42,802 nt of DNA from Sulfurimonadaceae bacterium (GTDB lineage Bacteria > Campylobacterota > Campylobacteria > Campylobacterales > Sulfurimonadaceae), in the NCBI GenBank assembly GCA_016744905.1, contig JADGDM010000019.1, positions 1-42,802 on the forward strand, in the 5' to 3' direction. Under the pieces are notes generated by a model that worked only from the letters and a program-made list of their open reading frames with translations, was not told the DNA's origin and made no database searches. The position numbers were made by a program, and so were the translations under genes. Below are positions 11,988 through 30,617 of the stretch, piece by piece. The number at the start of each line of letters is the position of its first letter. Positions within the stretch are counted from its first letter, which is position 1.

Positions 11988-12146
11988 TTATTTTTGGATA
12001 AATTTTCCACATTTTTTGACGGCAGATCCACCAAATTCATGAACTTCTCTTGCTGTTCCATTTTTAGCAATGACTTGACGATTACAATCATCTTTTGCAA
12101 TACACTCAGGATTTTTACATCCAATATCTGCAGGTACTTGTCCCAT
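11988..12146 (-). CDS. 52-residue cysteine-rich small protein
   Basis: This short frame begins with ATG at 12146 after a good ribosome site (AGGAAG, six bases away) and ends with TAA at 11988. It encodes MGQVPADIGCKNPEC and onward, with four cysteines at positions 10, 15, 21 and 46, one histidine (36), a basic C-terminus (KKCGKFIQK) and no signal peptide or membrane helix. The CxxxxC...C...C arrangement suggests a small metal-binding or zinc-ribbon-like fold. I do not recognise a named family. A TATAAT box lies 34 bases upstream, and purC follows at 23 bases, so the two may share a transcript. Confidence 0.7.
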   Translation of the reverse strand: MGQVPADIGCKNPECIAKDDCNRQVIAKNGTAREVHEFGGSAVKKCGKFIQK

Positions 12147-12187: not shown

Positions 12188-12685
12188 TTAATTCTGAGAG
12201 TGTAGGGATAGATTAGCAACTTTAGTATAGTAATAAAAAAGGTATAAACTAATTGATATTAAAACTATAGGACTAAGGTATTCATGAATAAAATCAAAAT
12301 AGTTTAGATGAAAACGTAAAATCCATGCCAAAAATGTTATACGTAAGATATTTAGTACTTGCAATATAAAGATACTTGAAATCATCCATGTCAGTTTTAA
12401 TTTTAATTTTGCAGGGTAAGCCATGATTACAGCGAGAAAAAGTAAGGTTGCTTTTAGACCATTACACTCAGGCTCAATAAGCATGGTTATATTGTCTAAT
12501 TTAAATGAATTTCCCTGTATTTCTGCTTGTATGCCAATGACCTCAATAGAATATTTGGTCAACTCAATACTTAAAAGTGTCGACCATGTATCTATGGGAG
12601 TGAAAAAAAACAGTATTGAGAGCAGGGATAAATAGAGAAAATAGTAAAGTAAAAACTTTAGTATTTTCAGGTTTCTATGAAGCAT
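12188..12685 (-). CDS. Compact exosortase, XrtH-like
   Basis: This polytopic inner-membrane transpeptidase-like protein of 165 residues resembles the short exosortase H group. The proposed catalytic residues of the family are visible: Cys74 in PECNGLKA, Arg115 in LNILRITF and His134 in FDFIHEYL, each near the end of a membrane segment. Exosortases cut proteins with a C-terminal PEP-CTERM-like signal. The start ATG lies inside the last codons of the upstream gene, which encodes a protein with such a tail, so the pair is translationally coupled. Assignment to XrtH is by remembered similarity of CNGL...AYPA...LNxxRI...H and needs a profile search. Confidence 0.82.
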   Translation of the reverse strand: MLHRNLKILKFLLYYFLYLSLLSILFFFTPIDTWSTLLSIELTKYSIEVIGIQAEIQGNSFKLDNITMLIEPECNGLKATLLFLAVIMAYPAKLKLKLTWMISSIFILQVLNILRITFLAWILRFHLNYFDFIHEYLSPIVLISISLYLFYYYTKVANLSLHSQN

Positions 12686-14111
12686 TCTCTAGTTCATCAC
12701 CTTTTTTAAGTCCAATATAAGCAACTAATGTAAATAAGAAAAACATCAACGCTATGGCTGTATTTGATAGTGGTAATGATTTTGTTTCTGAATATGTGGC
12801 GGTAGTAATGGTTTGTTGTACCGGTTCGATTTTCGCAGCTATGAGTTTAGTATCAATAACTTCTGGAAAACCTACATGGATAATAGTTCCATCTGCTACT
12901 GCATCAATATCTCCATCTGCCCCATCTTTTAAAGTCAATACTAAAGTTTTTGAGTCATTTGATATATCATACCCGACTGTAGTAGGAAAAGCGAAAATGG
13001 TTCCTATGTCAGACCAACTGCCTGTATTTGGATTATGAATAGAATAGCCCGTAAAAAGTAGTGTACTGTCATCAGGAATGGTGTAGGTGACTTGAAAATT
13101 GAAGCCAACATTTGATTGAATTTCTAAATCTAAACCATCAACTAAGAGTCTTTGCTGAAGCGCTATATCTGCAGGCAGTGTATAGTCGGAGAGTGGAACA
13201 TTTGCAGATTTTACTATATTAAAAGGTATCTCTGTGTCATTATTATCATAAGTGGTGTAAATGAGTGTATAACCTTGCTCATTCACAATTTCTTGTGCAT
13301 CTTCAATCGCTTCAGTCACCTCTTCAACATCAGTAGTTAATAGGTACCCATAAGTAAATGTTTTTTCTTCATCAATCGCAAAATCTTCTAAATTAAATGC
13401 TATATCAATACTGTTGTCACCATCACCTATATCAATTCCGCTTAAGGATACATCTGGATCCTCTGTCCAGTCAGAAACAGAGGTATTATGAATGAAATTT
13501 TGGTCGGTAGTAAAAAGAGCGATACTACTATCATTTGAGAGTTGAGCTTGGACAAGATCTTCAGGTGAATATTGAAGATTACCTCGTTGATTTACAGTGT
13601 CATAAATGTTTAGATTAAAATCTGGGTCTACACTACGTAGGTATTTGACTTGGTCTATAGCCTGTGCACTGATATTTTTTATACTGACACTAATTTCGAG
13701 CAATTTAGAGTCTTCAAGTAGAGTATAAACGTGTTTGATGCGCAATTTGTCATTCATATTTGAACTACTCATTACCAAATTTGAATTACCAGAAATGAAG
13801 GTTTGCATATCTGGAGAGTTATAATTACTATTTGAATTGGTCTCTATAGTTGAACCATACTTAACACTAAAAATTTCATGTGGTGCACCAGGGATAATAA
13901 TATCGTCATTGTTTTGAAAAACGCCCTGTCCAGTAGAATCATACTGGATACCAGGATAGTTATTACCACCAAAACCTAAGGTTCCGTCACAGCTAATGGC
14001 TGTTTTGATGTAGTTGTTTTCCAAATTTATAGAGGGACAAGCCGCCGCTATTAGAGAAGATTCTAAAAGAAGTGTAAGAGATGAAAGTTGTAAAATTCTT
14101 GTAAATGTCAT
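12675..14111 (-). CDS. Exported protein with exosortase-type C-terminal sorting signal (probable exosortase cargo)
   Basis: From the ATG at 14111 (AGGA eight bases before it) this protein has 478 residues. It has a signal peptide ending near AACPS, a large threonine/aspartate-rich, probably beta-sheet middle without recognised enzymatic motifs, and a tripartite tail: SLPLSNTA, a hydrophobic helix (ALMFFLFTLVAYIGL), then KKG plus a short acidic end. That tail has the layout of CTERM signals and most resembles the IPTLxxWG type read by XrtH, though without the tryptophan. A TTG two codons upstream is a weaker start. It overlaps the exosortase gene by 11 bases, so it is most likely the dedicated substrate. 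Confidence 0.75.
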   Translation of the reverse strand: MTFTRILQLSSLTLLLESSLIAAACPSINLENNYIKTAISCDGTLGFGGNNYPGIQYDSTGQGVFQNNDDIIIPGAPHEIFSVKYGSTIETNSNSNYNSPDMQTFISGNSNLVMSSSNMNDKLRIKHVYTLLEDSKLLEISVSIKNISAQAIDQVKYLRSVDPDFNLNIYDTVNQRGNLQYSPEDLVQAQLSNDSSIALFTTDQNFIHNTSVSDWTEDPDVSLSGIDIGDGDNSIDIAFNLEDFAIDEEKTFTYGYLLTTDVEEVTEAIEDAQEIVNEQGYTLIYTTYDNNDTEIPFNIVKSANVPLSDYTLPADIALQQRLLVDGLDLEIQSNVGFNFQVTYTIPDDSTLLFTGYSIHNPNTGSWSDIGTIFAFPTTVGYDISNDSKTLVLTLKDGADGDIDAVADGTIIHVGFPEVIDTKLIAAKIEPVQQTITTATYSETKSLPLSNTAIALMFFLFTLVAYIGLKKGDELENAS

Positions 14112-14144
14112 TAGCAATCCTAGTTATTAAATAATATAAACGGC

Positions 14145-20667: not shown

Positions 20668-21852
20668 TTGAAAAATCTATATACTAAAGAAGCGGCGCAA
20701 AAATGTAAAAGTGACTTAGACTTTCGAGTCTATACGTCTAATCTTTTAGGTCAATCAGACTCATTGGTTCTTCATGGTGGTGGAAATACCTCAGTGAAAA
20801 CGACCATCGATGGTGAAGAAATTTTACTGGTTAAAGGAAGTGGTTGGGACTTGGTCTCTATTAAAGCCGAGGGTTTTGCTCCTGTTAAAATGAGCACACT
20901 TTTAGAGATGGCAGCACTTAAAGAGTTAAGTGACACGGACATGGTCAGTGGTCAAAAAGCGGCGATGATTGATAAAACTGCACCAAATCCTTCTGTTGAA
21001 GCTATCTTACATGCCTTGATCCCTTTTAAAGTAGTAGATCATACACACGCTGACGCGGTGGTGACTATCTCTAACTCTACAAATGGACAAACACTGATTG
21101 AAGAGTTGTATAAAGACTTTTTAATTGTGCCTTATGTGATGCCGGGATTTATTTTAGCGCATACGATTTATCAGATGACAAGAGATTTTGATTGGTCAAG
21201 TTGTAAGGGGATAGTGTTGCATAATCATGGGATATTTACCTTTGATGATGACGCTAAAATCTCTTACGATAAGATGATCGACGCCGTAACCATGGCAGAA
21301 GAGTTTTTAATGAAAAATGCGCCTTTAAAAATTAATAAAAATAACCCTAGAATTGACTTGGATACTGAGTTGCTTCAAACACTACTTAACAAAGAAAAAG
21401 GGATGGAAGTAAGCCTGCATATCAATACCTCTTTACTAGCGCGCTGTTATGCAACAAAAGAGGATCTCTCTACTTTTGCAACACGTGGTGTTTTAACTCC
21501 TGAGCATATTTTACGGACTAAAAGAGTGCCACTTATTTTAGAGACACAAGATATCGCTCCTGCTTTAAAAAAGTATATTAAAAATTATAAAGCCTATTTT
21601 GAGCGTTACGCCAAAGAGGAAATGATGCTGAATCCTGCGCCAAATTATGTGGTGATTAAAGACTTTGGAATCATTACTATTGGAAAGAGTGAAAAAGAGG
21701 CTCTAGTTATCAATGATGTGGTTGAACACACCATGATGGCAGTTCTACGCGCTGACGCGCTGGGTGGTTACAAAAGTATCTCTGAAGCAGACAGTTTTGA
21801 GATGGAGTACTGGGAATTAGAACAGAACAAGCTTAAAGCGATAAAAGTCTAA
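20668..21852 (+). CDS. Class II aldolase/adducin-family protein
   Basis: This 394-residue protein of the zinc-dependent class II aldolase group starts at TTG 20668. The motifs LHGGGNTSVK near the front, HTHADAV (two metal histidines) and LHNHGIFTF (third) are those of RhaD/FucA-type enzymes and of the N-terminal half of the large aldolase/dehydrogenase fusions. The fused short-chain dehydrogenase half is absent. It is followed without gap by the FGGY kinase, the usual kinase-then-aldolase pairing of sugar breakdown. The substrate is unknown. Confidence 0.85.
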   Translation: MKNLYTKEAAQKCKSDLDFRVYTSNLLGQSDSLVLHGGGNTSVKTTIDGEEILLVKGSGWDLVSIKAEGFAPVKMSTLLEMAALKELSDTDMVSGQKAAMIDKTAPNPSVEAILHALIPFKVVDHTHADAVVTISNSTNGQTLIEELYKDFLIVPYVMPGFILAHTIYQMTRDFDWSSCKGIVLHNHGIFTFDDDAKISYDKMIDAVTMAEEFLMKNAPLKINKNNPRIDLDTELLQTLLNKEKGMEVSLHINTSLLARCYATKEDLSTFATRGVLTPEHILRTKRVPLILETQDIAPALKKYIKNYKAYFERYAKEEMMLNPAPNYVVIKDFGIITIGKSEKEALVINDVVEHTMMAVLRADALGGYKSISEADSFEMEYWELEQNKLKAIKV

Positions 21853-23414
21853 TGTCTTCTCTCTTAGCCATTGATGCAGGAACTGGAAGTGTACGCGCAG
21901 TAATTTTTGATCTTGAGGGCAATCAACTGGGTGTGGCTCAATCAGAATGGACACACTTAGAAGAAGCAGATTTTCCTAACAGCATGCGCTTTGATTATGA
22001 GAAAAATTGGGCATTGACCTGTGAAGTGATTCAAGGTGCTCTTCGTGACGCGCAGGTAGAGGCTGAGGATATCTTAGCATTGAGTGCGACAAGCATGCGC
22101 GAAGGCATTGTACTTTATGACGCACAAGGTAATGAACTTTGGGGCGTGGCAAATGTAGATGCACGCGCAGACAAAGAAGTGAAGGCACTTAAAGAGAACT
22201 TCAAAGGTATAGAAGAGGAGTTTTATAAACTTTCTGGTCAAACCTTTGCACTTGGCGCGCTACCACGAATACTATGGCTTAAAAATAATCATCCTAAAAC
22301 GTATGAAAAAGTAGCCTCTATCTCGATGATCGGGGATTGGATTTTAGCAAAACTCTCTGGCGTTATTGCGAGTGATCCTAGTAATGGGGGAACAACAGGT
22401 GTCTTCTCTTTAAAAGATCGTGACTGGCGCGCTGATATGGCTGAACAAGTAGGCATTAAGTCTGATATCTTTCCACCTATCTTAGAAACTGGTACCGTCA
22501 TGGGCACAGTCAGTGAAGTCGGTGCGCGTCAAAGTGGACTCTCCACTAAAACTAAAGTGGTCATGGGTGGCGGCGATGTGCAACTCGGAAGTGCTGGTCT
22601 AGGTGTGGTTGATGAAGGTCAAGTGGCCGTTCTTGGTGGCTCATTTTGGCAACAAGTGGTCAATATAAAAGCTGATGTGGCACCACCATCAAATATGGAT
22701 ATACGTGTGAATCCTCACGTCGTAGAAGGTCTCTCTCAAGCTGAGGGGATTACCTTTTTTAGTGGTTTGGTGATGCGCTGGTTTAGAGATGCTTTCTGTG
22801 ACTTAGAAAAATTAGAAGCGGAAACAAGAGGGGTAGATGTTTACTCTATTCTTGAAGAGAAAGCGTCTAAGATTCCTGTGGGTTCTTACGGAATTCTCCC
22901 TATCTTTTCTGATTCGATGAAGTATGGACATTGGATGCATGCCAGTCCCAGTTTTATTAATCTTTCCCTCGACAGTGAAAAATCAAATAAGGCCTCAATG
23001 TTTCGCTCTTTGCAAGAAAATGCCTGTATTGTCTCTCAAATAAATCTTGAAAAAATAGAGCAGTTTACCAACATCAAAGTTAACGAAATTGTTTTTGCAG
23101 GTGGGGCAAGTAAAGGTGCACTCTGGTCGCAGATTCTAGCAGATGTGACAGCTTGTACGATCAAAATTCCTCGTGTAACTGAAGCAACAGCACTTGGTGC
23201 AGCGATGGCTGCGGGTGTTGGTGCGGGTGTGTATGATTCACTTAGCAGTGCGGCTAAAAGTTTAGTTGTGTGGGATAAAACCTATGTTCCAAACCTAGAA
23301 AACAGTAAAAAATATGCTGAGATAAAAACCAAATGGCAGGCTGTTTATGAAGAACAACTCTCATTAGTTGAAAAAAATTTAACCACCTCAATGTGGAAAG
23401 CACCTGGTCTTTAA
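21852..23414 (+). CDS. LsrK-like FGGY-family carbohydrate kinase
   Basis: This 520-residue kinase of the FGGY family closely resembles the autoinducer-2 kinase LsrK as I recall it: DAGTGSVRAVIFDLEGNQ at the N-terminus, SMREGIVLY, GGGDVQLG, NPHVVEG, RWFRDAFC, FAGGASKG and the ending LTTSMWKAPGL. LsrK phosphorylates 4,5-dihydroxy-2,3-pentanedione. Here it comes without the Lsr transporter or LsrR, but with an ABM protein and a class II aldolase. Activity on AI-2 or on a related deoxy-pentose is inference. Confidence 0.85.
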   Translation: MSSLLAIDAGTGSVRAVIFDLEGNQLGVAQSEWTHLEEADFPNSMRFDYEKNWALTCEVIQGALRDAQVEAEDILALSATSMREGIVLYDAQGNELWGVANVDARADKEVKALKENFKGIEEEFYKLSGQTFALGALPRILWLKNNHPKTYEKVASISMIGDWILAKLSGVIASDPSNGGTTGVFSLKDRDWRADMAEQVGIKSDIFPPILETGTVMGTVSEVGARQSGLSTKTKVVMGGGDVQLGSAGLGVVDEGQVAVLGGSFWQQVVNIKADVAPPSNMDIRVNPHVVEGLSQAEGITFFSGLVMRWFRDAFCDLEKLEAETRGVDVYSILEEKASKIPVGSYGILPIFSDSMKYGHWMHASPSFINLSLDSEKSNKASMFRSLQENACIVSQINLEKIEQFTNIKVNEIVFAGGASKGALWSQILADVTACTIKIPRVTEATALGAAMAAGVGAGVYDSLSSAAKSLVVWDKTYVPNLENSKKYAEIKTKWQAVYEEQLSLVEKNLTTSMWKAPGL

Positions 23415-28226: not shown

Positions 28227-29297
28227 TTGAAACGACTTGCCTTAGTGATTGACTCTATGGGAATGGGTGGAGCAGAGACTGTTACACTGACACTGGCTCA
28301 GGAGTTTATCAAACAAGGACACAGTGTTGATCTGTTTGTAGTTGATGATATTATTAAGCTTGATGTTGATAAAGAGATCAATCTTCATATCTTAGGTTTC
28401 AAAAAAAGAAATTTTGCGTATAAAATTTATGCTGCTAAGCTACATCAGATGATCCATGAGACTGGCTATTTTGATGGAGTATATGTACATTTACAAAAGT
28501 CAGCGCGCTTGATGAAAAACTTTAAACACCCACATCTTTACTTTGTTATCCATTCAACACTGTCTCAAGCCTCTTTATCTGGACGTCATGGTCTGAAACT
28601 CTATCTTAAAAAGCGTTTTTTGCATAAAATATATAATGGGCTGAATTTAATTACCGTATCGAAAGGGATTGAAGAAGATATCTTAAATACGACAGGTATT
28701 AAACCTAAATCTATTCAAACTATCTATAACCCACTTAACTTTGAACAGGTTAGAAATTTGGCCAAAGAAAAGATAGACTTAGATTTTGGTGAATATATTA
28801 TTCATGTTGGTCGTCTGGCTTCATCTAAGCGTCATGATAGACTTCTTAGAGCTTTTTCCGCCTCAAGTACCAAGTATAATCTTCTACTCATTGGAGAGGG
28901 GGATATGCGTACTTCTATTGAGAAGCAGATTGTAGAATTGGGACTTAATGATAGAGTCAAACTTCTTGGATTTAACAGTAACCCTTATCCCTATATCAAG
29001 TGCGCCAAGCTTTTAGTTTTAAGTTCTGATTATGAAGGCTTGCCTACAGTTTTAATTGAGGCCTTAGTACTTGGAACCAATGTTGTCAGTACAAACTGTC
29101 CCTCGGGACCAAAAGAGATACTCTCAAATGGATTAGAAGATAATTTAGTGAGGTTAAATGATATCAATGACTTGGCGTTAAAAATGGCTGGTCAGTCTCA
29201 AAAAAACTTAAAACCAATGGTTCAAAACAGGAGTATTCAGTATTTTGAAAGTGAATACATTGCAAAAAAATATCTTTTTATATTAAAGTTAAAATAG
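28227..29297 (+). CDS. GT4 glycosyltransferase
   Basis: This 356-residue GT-B transferase starts at TTG 28227, two bases after the previous stop. It has the front motif IDSMGMGGAETV, the mid-protein HVGRLASSKRHDRLL and the signature LVLSSDYEGLPTVLIEAL. SGPKEIL follows as in many N-acetylgalactosamine or galactose transferases of this family, but the sugar is not predictable. Its 3' end overlaps, tail to tail, the O-antigen polymerase/ligase gene on the other strand. It carries the last AGCGCGCT before a 7-kb stretch without that motif. Confidence 0.85.
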   Translation: MKRLALVIDSMGMGGAETVTLTLAQEFIKQGHSVDLFVVDDIIKLDVDKEINLHILGFKKRNFAYKIYAAKLHQMIHETGYFDGVYVHLQKSARLMKNFKHPHLYFVIHSTLSQASLSGRHGLKLYLKKRFLHKIYNGLNLITVSKGIEEDILNTTGIKPKSIQTIYNPLNFEQVRNLAKEKIDLDFGEYIIHVGRLASSKRHDRLLRAFSASSTKYNLLLIGEGDMRTSIEKQIVELGLNDRVKLLGFNSNPYPYIKCAKLLVLSSDYEGLPTVLIEALVLGTNVVSTNCPSGPKEILSNGLEDNLVRLNDINDLALKMAGQSQKNLKPMVQNRSIQYFESEYIAKKYLFILKLK

Positions 29298-30557
29298 TTT
29301 CTTTTCTTTAAAGTTTTTGATACTTTGGTTCGCTGGAGTGAGTAAGGTTATTGATATAAAGGTGACAAACAGTACTAAAGAGAGTTCTGTTTTGTTGCTC
29401 ACAATATCAATAAGCCCAAAAAATATTATAGCAACACCCAGTATTAACTGCATATTTCTAAGCATGGTGTTTTCTTGTTTATATTTATATATTTGATAGA
29501 AAATATTAAGATAAATTATAAGAGCAAAAATTCCAAATTGGACCACTATACTTAAATATTCATTATGTAGGTGAAAAAATGCATTGGAGAGATGTTTGAT
29601 TTCTGGTCTATTAATATTTGTATATTCTCTTACCTCAGATAGATGATCTGATGTTCCCACACCAAAAAATAAGTTTTTCTCTATAACTCCTAATGCACTT
29701 TGATAGACAACGAGTCGTGCCCCTAATGAAGTGTTATAAAACTTATCTTCTTGATTAATGATCTTAGAAAATGTAGCAGTTGTAGTATTGACTCTATCTT
29801 GAAATAACGTACTGAAATTGTAGGCAGAAGTAAATGCAATAGCGAGGAATATACTCATTGCAATACTCATTTTGATAAGTTGTTTCTTGAATAATAAAAG
29901 GGCACCAGCATAAAGTAAAATTAGATATAGCACATAACCTGTTCTTCCACCTGTAATAAATAAGTTAATGGAGGCGGTTAGAAAAAATAAAGCAAGAATT
30001 ATTCGTGTACTTAAATTCTCTTTTTTTAAAAAGAAATCTTGAAAAATCATGACAAGCGTAAATGAAAGAATAAGACCATAATGCGTGTGATGAAAAAATG
30101 GAGTTGGATCTGTATAGGAACTGTAATATCCAAAACTAGCAGGTAAGAGCTGAAAAAATAGTCCATAAGAAGCAATTTCACTAATTAACATACCTAGAAA
30201 AAAGGCAGTTAAGATGTGTTTTATAAAGCGATAGTCTAAAAAAGAGATAAATACTATAGGATAAAGATAAAAAAGGCCTGACTTTAATACCCATGAACTA
30301 CTTGCAATATCCTCTGTTCCAAACAACCAAACAATATGTGTAAGCGCATAGAATGACATGGCTAAGATTACCTTGTTTTGTAAGGCAGTCCTGATATAAG
30401 GAATAAAATTTCCTCTAATAATGAAAATGAGTAAAATAATAATAAAAATATTTTCACTTCCCCTATGTGAAAGTGGTAATACAAAAGTAAAAAGTATAAA
30501 AAGATAATTGAGTATGAGATTGAGATTATTTTTTTCTCTAAATGTTGTGATATTCAA
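29289..30557 (-). CDS. O-antigen ligase/polymerase family membrane protein (WaaL/Wzy)
   Basis: This polytopic protein has about ten or more membrane helices and a large periplasmic loop containing GVGTSDHL and NAFFHLHNEYLSIVVQFG, the pattern of the Wzy_C family that includes WaaL O-antigen ligases. A TTG at 30557 with GGAA six bases before it is the preferred start (422 residues). A TTG at 30587 would lie upstream of or within the TATAAT box at 30582-30577. Ligase or polymerase cannot be told apart from sequence. Base composition is more AT-rich than in the genes to the left. Confidence 0.82.
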   Translation of the reverse strand: MNITTFREKNNLNLILNYLFILFTFVLPLSHRGSENIFIIILLIFIIRGNFIPYIRTALQNKVILAMSFYALTHIVWLFGTEDIASSSWVLKSGLFYLYPIVFISFLDYRFIKHILTAFFLGMLISEIASYGLFFQLLPASFGYYSSYTDPTPFFHHTHYGLILSFTLVMIFQDFFLKKENLSTRIILALFFLTASINLFITGGRTGYVLYLILLYAGALLLFKKQLIKMSIAMSIFLAIAFTSAYNFSTLFQDRVNTTTATFSKIINQEDKFYNTSLGARLVVYQSALGVIEKNLFFGVGTSDHLSEVREYTNINRPEIKHLSNAFFHLHNEYLSIVVQFGIFALIIYLNIFYQIYKYKQENTMLRNMQLILGVAIIFFGLIDIVSNKTELSLVLFVTFISITLLTPANQSIKNFKEKKLF

Positions 30558-30570
30558 GTCAATTTCCGTT

Positions 30571-30617
30571 TTTGAAATTATAGCCAATAATTAAACAAAG
30601 TCTATTTGTTGTAAAAT
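30571..30617. promoter_or_regulatory. Divergent promoter, copy A of a repeated layout
   Basis: The minus-strand box TATAAT (30582-30577) and plus-strand TAAAAT (30612-30617) lie back to back, separated by CCAATAATTAAACAAAG and variable bases. The same blocks with identical spacing occur at 34512-34558. It serves the Wzy/WaaL gene leftwards and the GT2 gene rightwards. Confidence 0.5.

Follow-up and report, generated by a model that had tools for sequence, protein, structure and literature searches.

Do an exosortase-family membrane enzyme and the exported protein encoded immediately upstream of it form a dedicated sorting system, and if so, which type of enzyme and which tail signal does the pair represent? 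The window, that is, the whole stretch of DNA analyzed here (42,802 nucleotides), carries both genes on the minus strand, and the enzyme and overlapping cargo open reading frames were located as the preliminary description had stated.

12188–12685, minus strand: exosortase-family membrane enzyme, 165 residues, XrtH/XrtX-like by profile matches; sole TIGR04178 match in the genome
12675–14111, minus strand: exported cargo protein, 478 residues, with ATG at 14111 and stop at 12675; sole copy in the genome
12675–12685, minus strand: 11-nucleotide overlap of the cargo 3′ end with the enzyme 5′ end, read from the sequence
14118–14121, minus strand: AGGA, a ribosome-binding-like site ahead of the cargo ATG, read from the sequence

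The 11-nucleotide overlap probably couples translation of cargo and enzyme. A TTG six bases upstream of the ATG at 14111 is an alternative cargo start, which is less likely because the AGGA (14121–14118) fits the ATG. Promoter and terminator scans returned matches at chance level only. The pair is flanked by genes that we take, from reading their translations by eye, to be purC-like and cysD-like; a 52-residue open reading frame harboring four Cys (MGQVPADIGCKNPECIAKDDCNRQ...; window 11988–12146, minus strand) separates the enzyme from the purC-like gene and possibly encodes a small metal-binding protein. Elsewhere in the window, 20668–23414 holds a gene resembling class II aldolases and, after it, a strong match to autoinducer-2 kinase (LsrK-type, 859.8 bits), and an O-antigen ligase-like (Wzy_C) gene at 29289–30587 (G+C 0.295 versus 0.371 for the window) closes a glycan gene cluster starting at about 23.4 kb.

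The enzyme among exosortases

The enzyme is hydrophobic and polytopic and scores well above the cut-offs of both superfamily models, with 57.8 bits against TIGR04178 (cut-off 23) and 52.7 bits against PF09721 (cut-off 25.7); these profiles place it in the exosortase superfamily and mark it as a predicted tail-cleaving enzyme. The residues previously assigned to the exosortase positions are conserved throughout.

12464–12466, minus strand: Cys74 codon, predicted nucleophile in an ECNG motif; identical in 32/32
12341–12343, minus strand: Arg115 codon, predicted catalytic Arg; identical in 32/32
12284–12286, minus strand: His134 codon, predicted catalytic His; identical in 32/32

In the underlying alignment of 32 Campylobacterales homologues, Gly76, Asn112, and Phe130 are likewise unchanged. 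In the profile search, the enzyme reaches the cut-off for none of the named types; the top-scoring named model is that of XrtX (NF046081; 65.6 bits, cut-off 170), with XrtH at 63.7 bits (TIGR04177; cut-off 86) and XrtM at 45.8 bits (cut-off 125). The likeness to XrtH proposed in the preliminary description thus holds, since XrtH is among the two best named models, but membership does not: by the curated model, the enzyme is XrtH-like and yet not XrtH. AlphaFold models were poor (mean pLDDT of 33 for the cargo and 49 for the enzyme), and a PDB fold search with the enzyme model returned no significant match; PDB sequence searches yielded no relative, and plasmid searches yielded a single weak exosortase (Methylomonas) and no relative of the cargo.

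Exosortase matches are found in 14 of the 100 genomes searched, the window genome (G000) counted, and in 40 of 399 across the order. The nearest relative is the enzyme of genome G009 (46% identical), with which the window enzyme groups with a support of 93/81. These two and 16 other Campylobacterales enzymes (15 labeled as the VPLS/partner group, plus that of G226) make up one side of a 99/98 split that has two other exosortase types on the opposite side, in a tree that was midpoint-rooted and lacks named XrtH sequences; to call them a clade presumes that the true root lies outside the group. Members of the 15-enzyme group usually have a membrane gene of ≈200 residues downstream of the enzyme. 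This partner passes the model of an exosortase H–associated membrane protein (NF041730) in G077 (37 versus 35), the other two partner genes tested giving no match, and the partner-bearing enzymes tested also score below the XrtH cut-off. A partner model built from eight sequences matches in G005, G579, G040, and G077 and detects no XrtH-associated partner protein in G000; a match in G009 (E 0.04, within a 631-residue frame) is unconvincing. With the partner absent from G000 and no convincing one in G009, we read the window pair as a solo form; by these comparisons, it branches as a partnerless sister to a Campylobacterales clade in which the partner is usually present.

Other arrangements were also seen. 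Genomes G467, G470, and G471 of the same family (L093:8664-10710, L094, and L095) have a second type of exosortase next to a cargo ending in GSGGGFDALD..SLIAMILGFLGIGAFIARRR, which is another adjacent exosortase–cargo pair with another signal, and the exosortases of Campylobacterales family f6 (L104 and L105) lie amid pseudopilin-like and type II secretion-like genes.

The cargo and its tail

The cargo comprises a signal peptide, two domains, and a C-terminal tail.

14043–14111, minus strand: predicted signal peptide, about residues 1–23 (hydrophobic segment 6–24; cleavage site by inspection)
13299–14036, minus strand: front domain, residues 26–271, common to a 526-residue exported G082 protein and two-partner-secretion (TPS) exoproteins
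12864–13121, minus strand: degenerate choice-of-anchor-U domain, residues 331–416, below the NF041766 cut-off and homologous to the G009 cargo
12762–12779, minus strand: SLPLSN signal motif, residues 445–450, from tail comparisons and the tail model
12708–12764, minus strand: C-terminal hydrophobic helix, residues 450–468, from the hydrophobic segment
12702–12707, minus strand: basic stop-transfer KK, residues 469–470, read from the sequence

Against NF041766 (cut-off 32), the cargo scores 26.4 bits as a protein and 28 as a genome frame, and the G009 cargo scores 31.3 or 33.3; the window cargo is the sole anchor-U match in its genome. The front domain recurs at 38% identity in the exported G082 protein, which lacks a CTERM tail, and mid-protein in FhaB-like exoproteins bearing a TPS domain, and because of these relatives, the surface role anticipated for the cargo appears likely. 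The earlier view of a cargo with no recognized domain survives in part: no enzymatic domain was found, but the protein is not domainless, as it has the degenerate anchor-U domain and a front domain that also occurs in TPS exoproteins. A weak match to GH36N (E 0.19) was dropped as an identity for the cargo.

The cargo ends in SLPLSN, the hydrophobic segment 450–468, and KKG, and helix 450–476 is the only well-predicted region of its AlphaFold model. The CTERM layout reported for this tail is confirmed: a model trained on 19 other cargo tails, with the window tail left out, recovers it with an E of 7.1e-7 among 704 ORF tails. Its 24.3 bits are the top score for any tail from a genome that contributed no training tail; the best ordinary membrane tails reach ≈14 bits. 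The window tail matches no curated NCBIfam CTERM model, including that of the XrtH targets (IPTL-CTERM; TIGR04174), to which the relatives' tails match mostly weakly, with four of 13 giving weak matches to IPTL_CTERM. The tails of anchor-U proteins and cargos encoded beside the enzyme clade, or in the same genome, run from VPLS, VPIS, VPLF, VPLP, or LPLSN into a helix and then basic residues; [VL]P[LIM][SFPL] is the usual signal, and Trp is present at the motif in none of the tails compared. More divergent are APISKEA in G226 and VPTIGEIG in G049, the latter ending an SdrD-like protein and intermediate toward IPTLxxWG. The tryptophan-free variant proposed in the preliminary description is thus borne out, but it is not peculiar to the window pair because it is shared across Campylobacterales; from the tails compared, the best reading is a VPLS/LPLSN-type signal related to IPTL-CTERM.

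Anchor-U domains also precede another kind of tail. The anchor-U proteins of G548 and G512 (L088 and L090) end in a Gly-Ser-rich GGSGSF[TS]LYSLL; G548 gave no exosortase match and G512 one weak match below the cut-off. As judged from the published description, these tails resemble GlyGly-CTERM (often SGGS), the rhombosortase signal (PMC3237569), which suggests that one anchor domain switches tails according to the sorting enzyme available in a genome.

A probable dedicated pair and its alternatives

G009 keeps the gene pair, and the two cargos align over their last 160 residues (33% identity, E 3e-19). The G009 cargo front is unrelated, consisting of choice-of-anchor-Q and polymorphic-membrane-protein repeats, so that only the anchor-U domain and the tail are shared, as expected if the enzyme reads the tail end. 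Across enzyme neighbors, the tail is kept in the G009 pair and in other adjacent pairs, with the cargo gene of G579, G226, and G080 likewise directly upstream of the enzyme. The G009 pair stands among other neighbors than the window pair, which is consistent with transfer as a unit. Among 228 family genomes, an exosortase is found in 18, an anchor-U protein in 12, and both in 8 to 9 (p about 1e-8); tails (E<1e-3) are found in 11, and nine of these 11 have the enzyme clade (p about 1e-11), the training tails having been drawn from most of the 11. A cleaner figure, because training genomes are excluded, comes from 395 order genomes, where three of four tail-bearing genomes have the enzyme clade (p 8e-6). 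All these p-values are optimistic because related genomes are not independent. G004, G012, and G229, all draft genomes, have tails with no enzyme detected.

A single exosortase, a single anchor-U protein, and a single such tail were detected in the window genome (3.0 Mb in 122 contigs, 99.99% complete), and the whole-genome scan for further LPLSN-type tails that had been proposed returned the window cargo alone. One enzyme, one target, and adjacency are therefore found together, within the search sensitivity and the 122-contig assembly. A dedicated system is an enzyme with a single target, in which case the two genes tend to adjoin (PMC3237569), and the window pair fits this published pattern. 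We thus consider it highly probable, on sequence grounds, that the two genes form an exosortase system in which one enzyme is dedicated to one cargo, with a VPLS/LPLSN-type tail signal and predicted cleavage and anchoring, much as the preliminary description had proposed.

Were the enzyme instead the general exosortase of its genome, further cargos would have tails too divergent for our model. Relatives such as G077 and G005 do carry several tails, and some clade tails diverge as far as VPTIGEIG (G049) and APISKEA (G226); however, the whole-genome tail models return the window tail alone, the cargo is the only anchor-U protein of the genome, and adjacency is typical of single-target systems (PMC3237569), all of which makes a general enzyme improbable. 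An accidental neighborhood, with the cargo an ordinary exported protein anchored in the inner membrane, is more improbable still, indeed very much so. A single helix followed by basic residues ends many proteins, and the G082 homologue of the front domain has no CTERM tail in a genome where no exosortase was detected, but chance adjacency sits poorly with a pair kept in G009 in another neighborhood with an unrelated cargo front, with a held-out score well above ordinary membrane tails, and with the co-occurrence of tails and the enzyme clade.

A further alternative concerns naming and is compatible with the mechanism of a dedicated pair: the enzyme would simply be an XrtH, and its signal a degenerate form of IPTLxxWG. 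The placement of XrtH among the two best models, the NF041730 protein of the sister clade in G077 (37 versus 35), the intermediate VPTIGEIG tail, and the four of 13 weak IPTL_CTERM matches speak for it. Yet the window enzyme and the partner-bearing relatives tested miss the cut-off of 86, the XrtX model scores as high, the genome lacks the partner protein, and none of the tails compared has the motif Trp, so that we regard this as unlikely.

In the favored reading of a dedicated pair, the signal peptide would export the cargo, presumably by Sec, and the C-terminal helix and KK would hold it in the inner membrane, as the layout implies. The exosortase would then cut at LPLSN via Cys74, with Arg115 and His134, and the shortened cargo would pass to the envelope or cell surface, to be released or attached; by family, the product is probably a surface protein with a covalent modification. 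A speculative mechanism published for ArtA, an archaeal relative, involves a Cys-linked intermediate followed by transfer to a lipid amine (PMC7157517). The gene overlap would couple synthesis of enzyme and substrate. More tentatively, and with slightly less than even probability, G000 and G009 may represent a separate solo exosortase type without the partner, in a lineage of Campylobacterales that has a VPLS-CTERM signal of its own, absent from the family libraries, the pair moving as a cassette that swaps the cargo front and keeps the tail. One enzyme, one substrate, and overlapping genes are a minimal layout, a handy test case for how a bacterial exosortase acts on its target and for whether it requires partner proteins; the locus also puts sorted surface proteins on record for Campylobacterales.

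Relation to known systems

The closest known system is XrtH/IPTL-CTERM (TIGR04177, TIGR04174, and NF041730), which shares a short enzyme (about 160 residues), a similar profile score, and a proline motif followed by a helix and a basic end, and the sister clade of the window pair has an XrtH-associated-like partner. In contrast, the window enzyme scores below the cut-off, LPLSN lacks the tryptophan and matches no IPTL model, and the system has one adjacent cargo and no partner protein; our literature search found no paper combining "exosortase" and "XrtH." Exosortase X (NF046081) is the best-scoring named model, yet 65.6 bits is far under 170. Choice-of-anchor-U proteins (NF041766) likewise place this domain just ahead of interchangeable C-terminal sorting tails, whereas the window domain is degenerate (26.4 versus 32 bits) and has no DPGG motif, unlike stronger members. 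In dedicated rhombosortase/GlyGly-CTERM and sortase pairs (PMC3237569), too, one enzyme adjoins one target and the tail has the same three parts, but their enzymes (rhomboid or sortase) are unrelated to exosortase, and the motif differs. The window pair is thus a known kind of surface-protein sorting, with a tail signal and a stripped-down layout that lie outside current family models.
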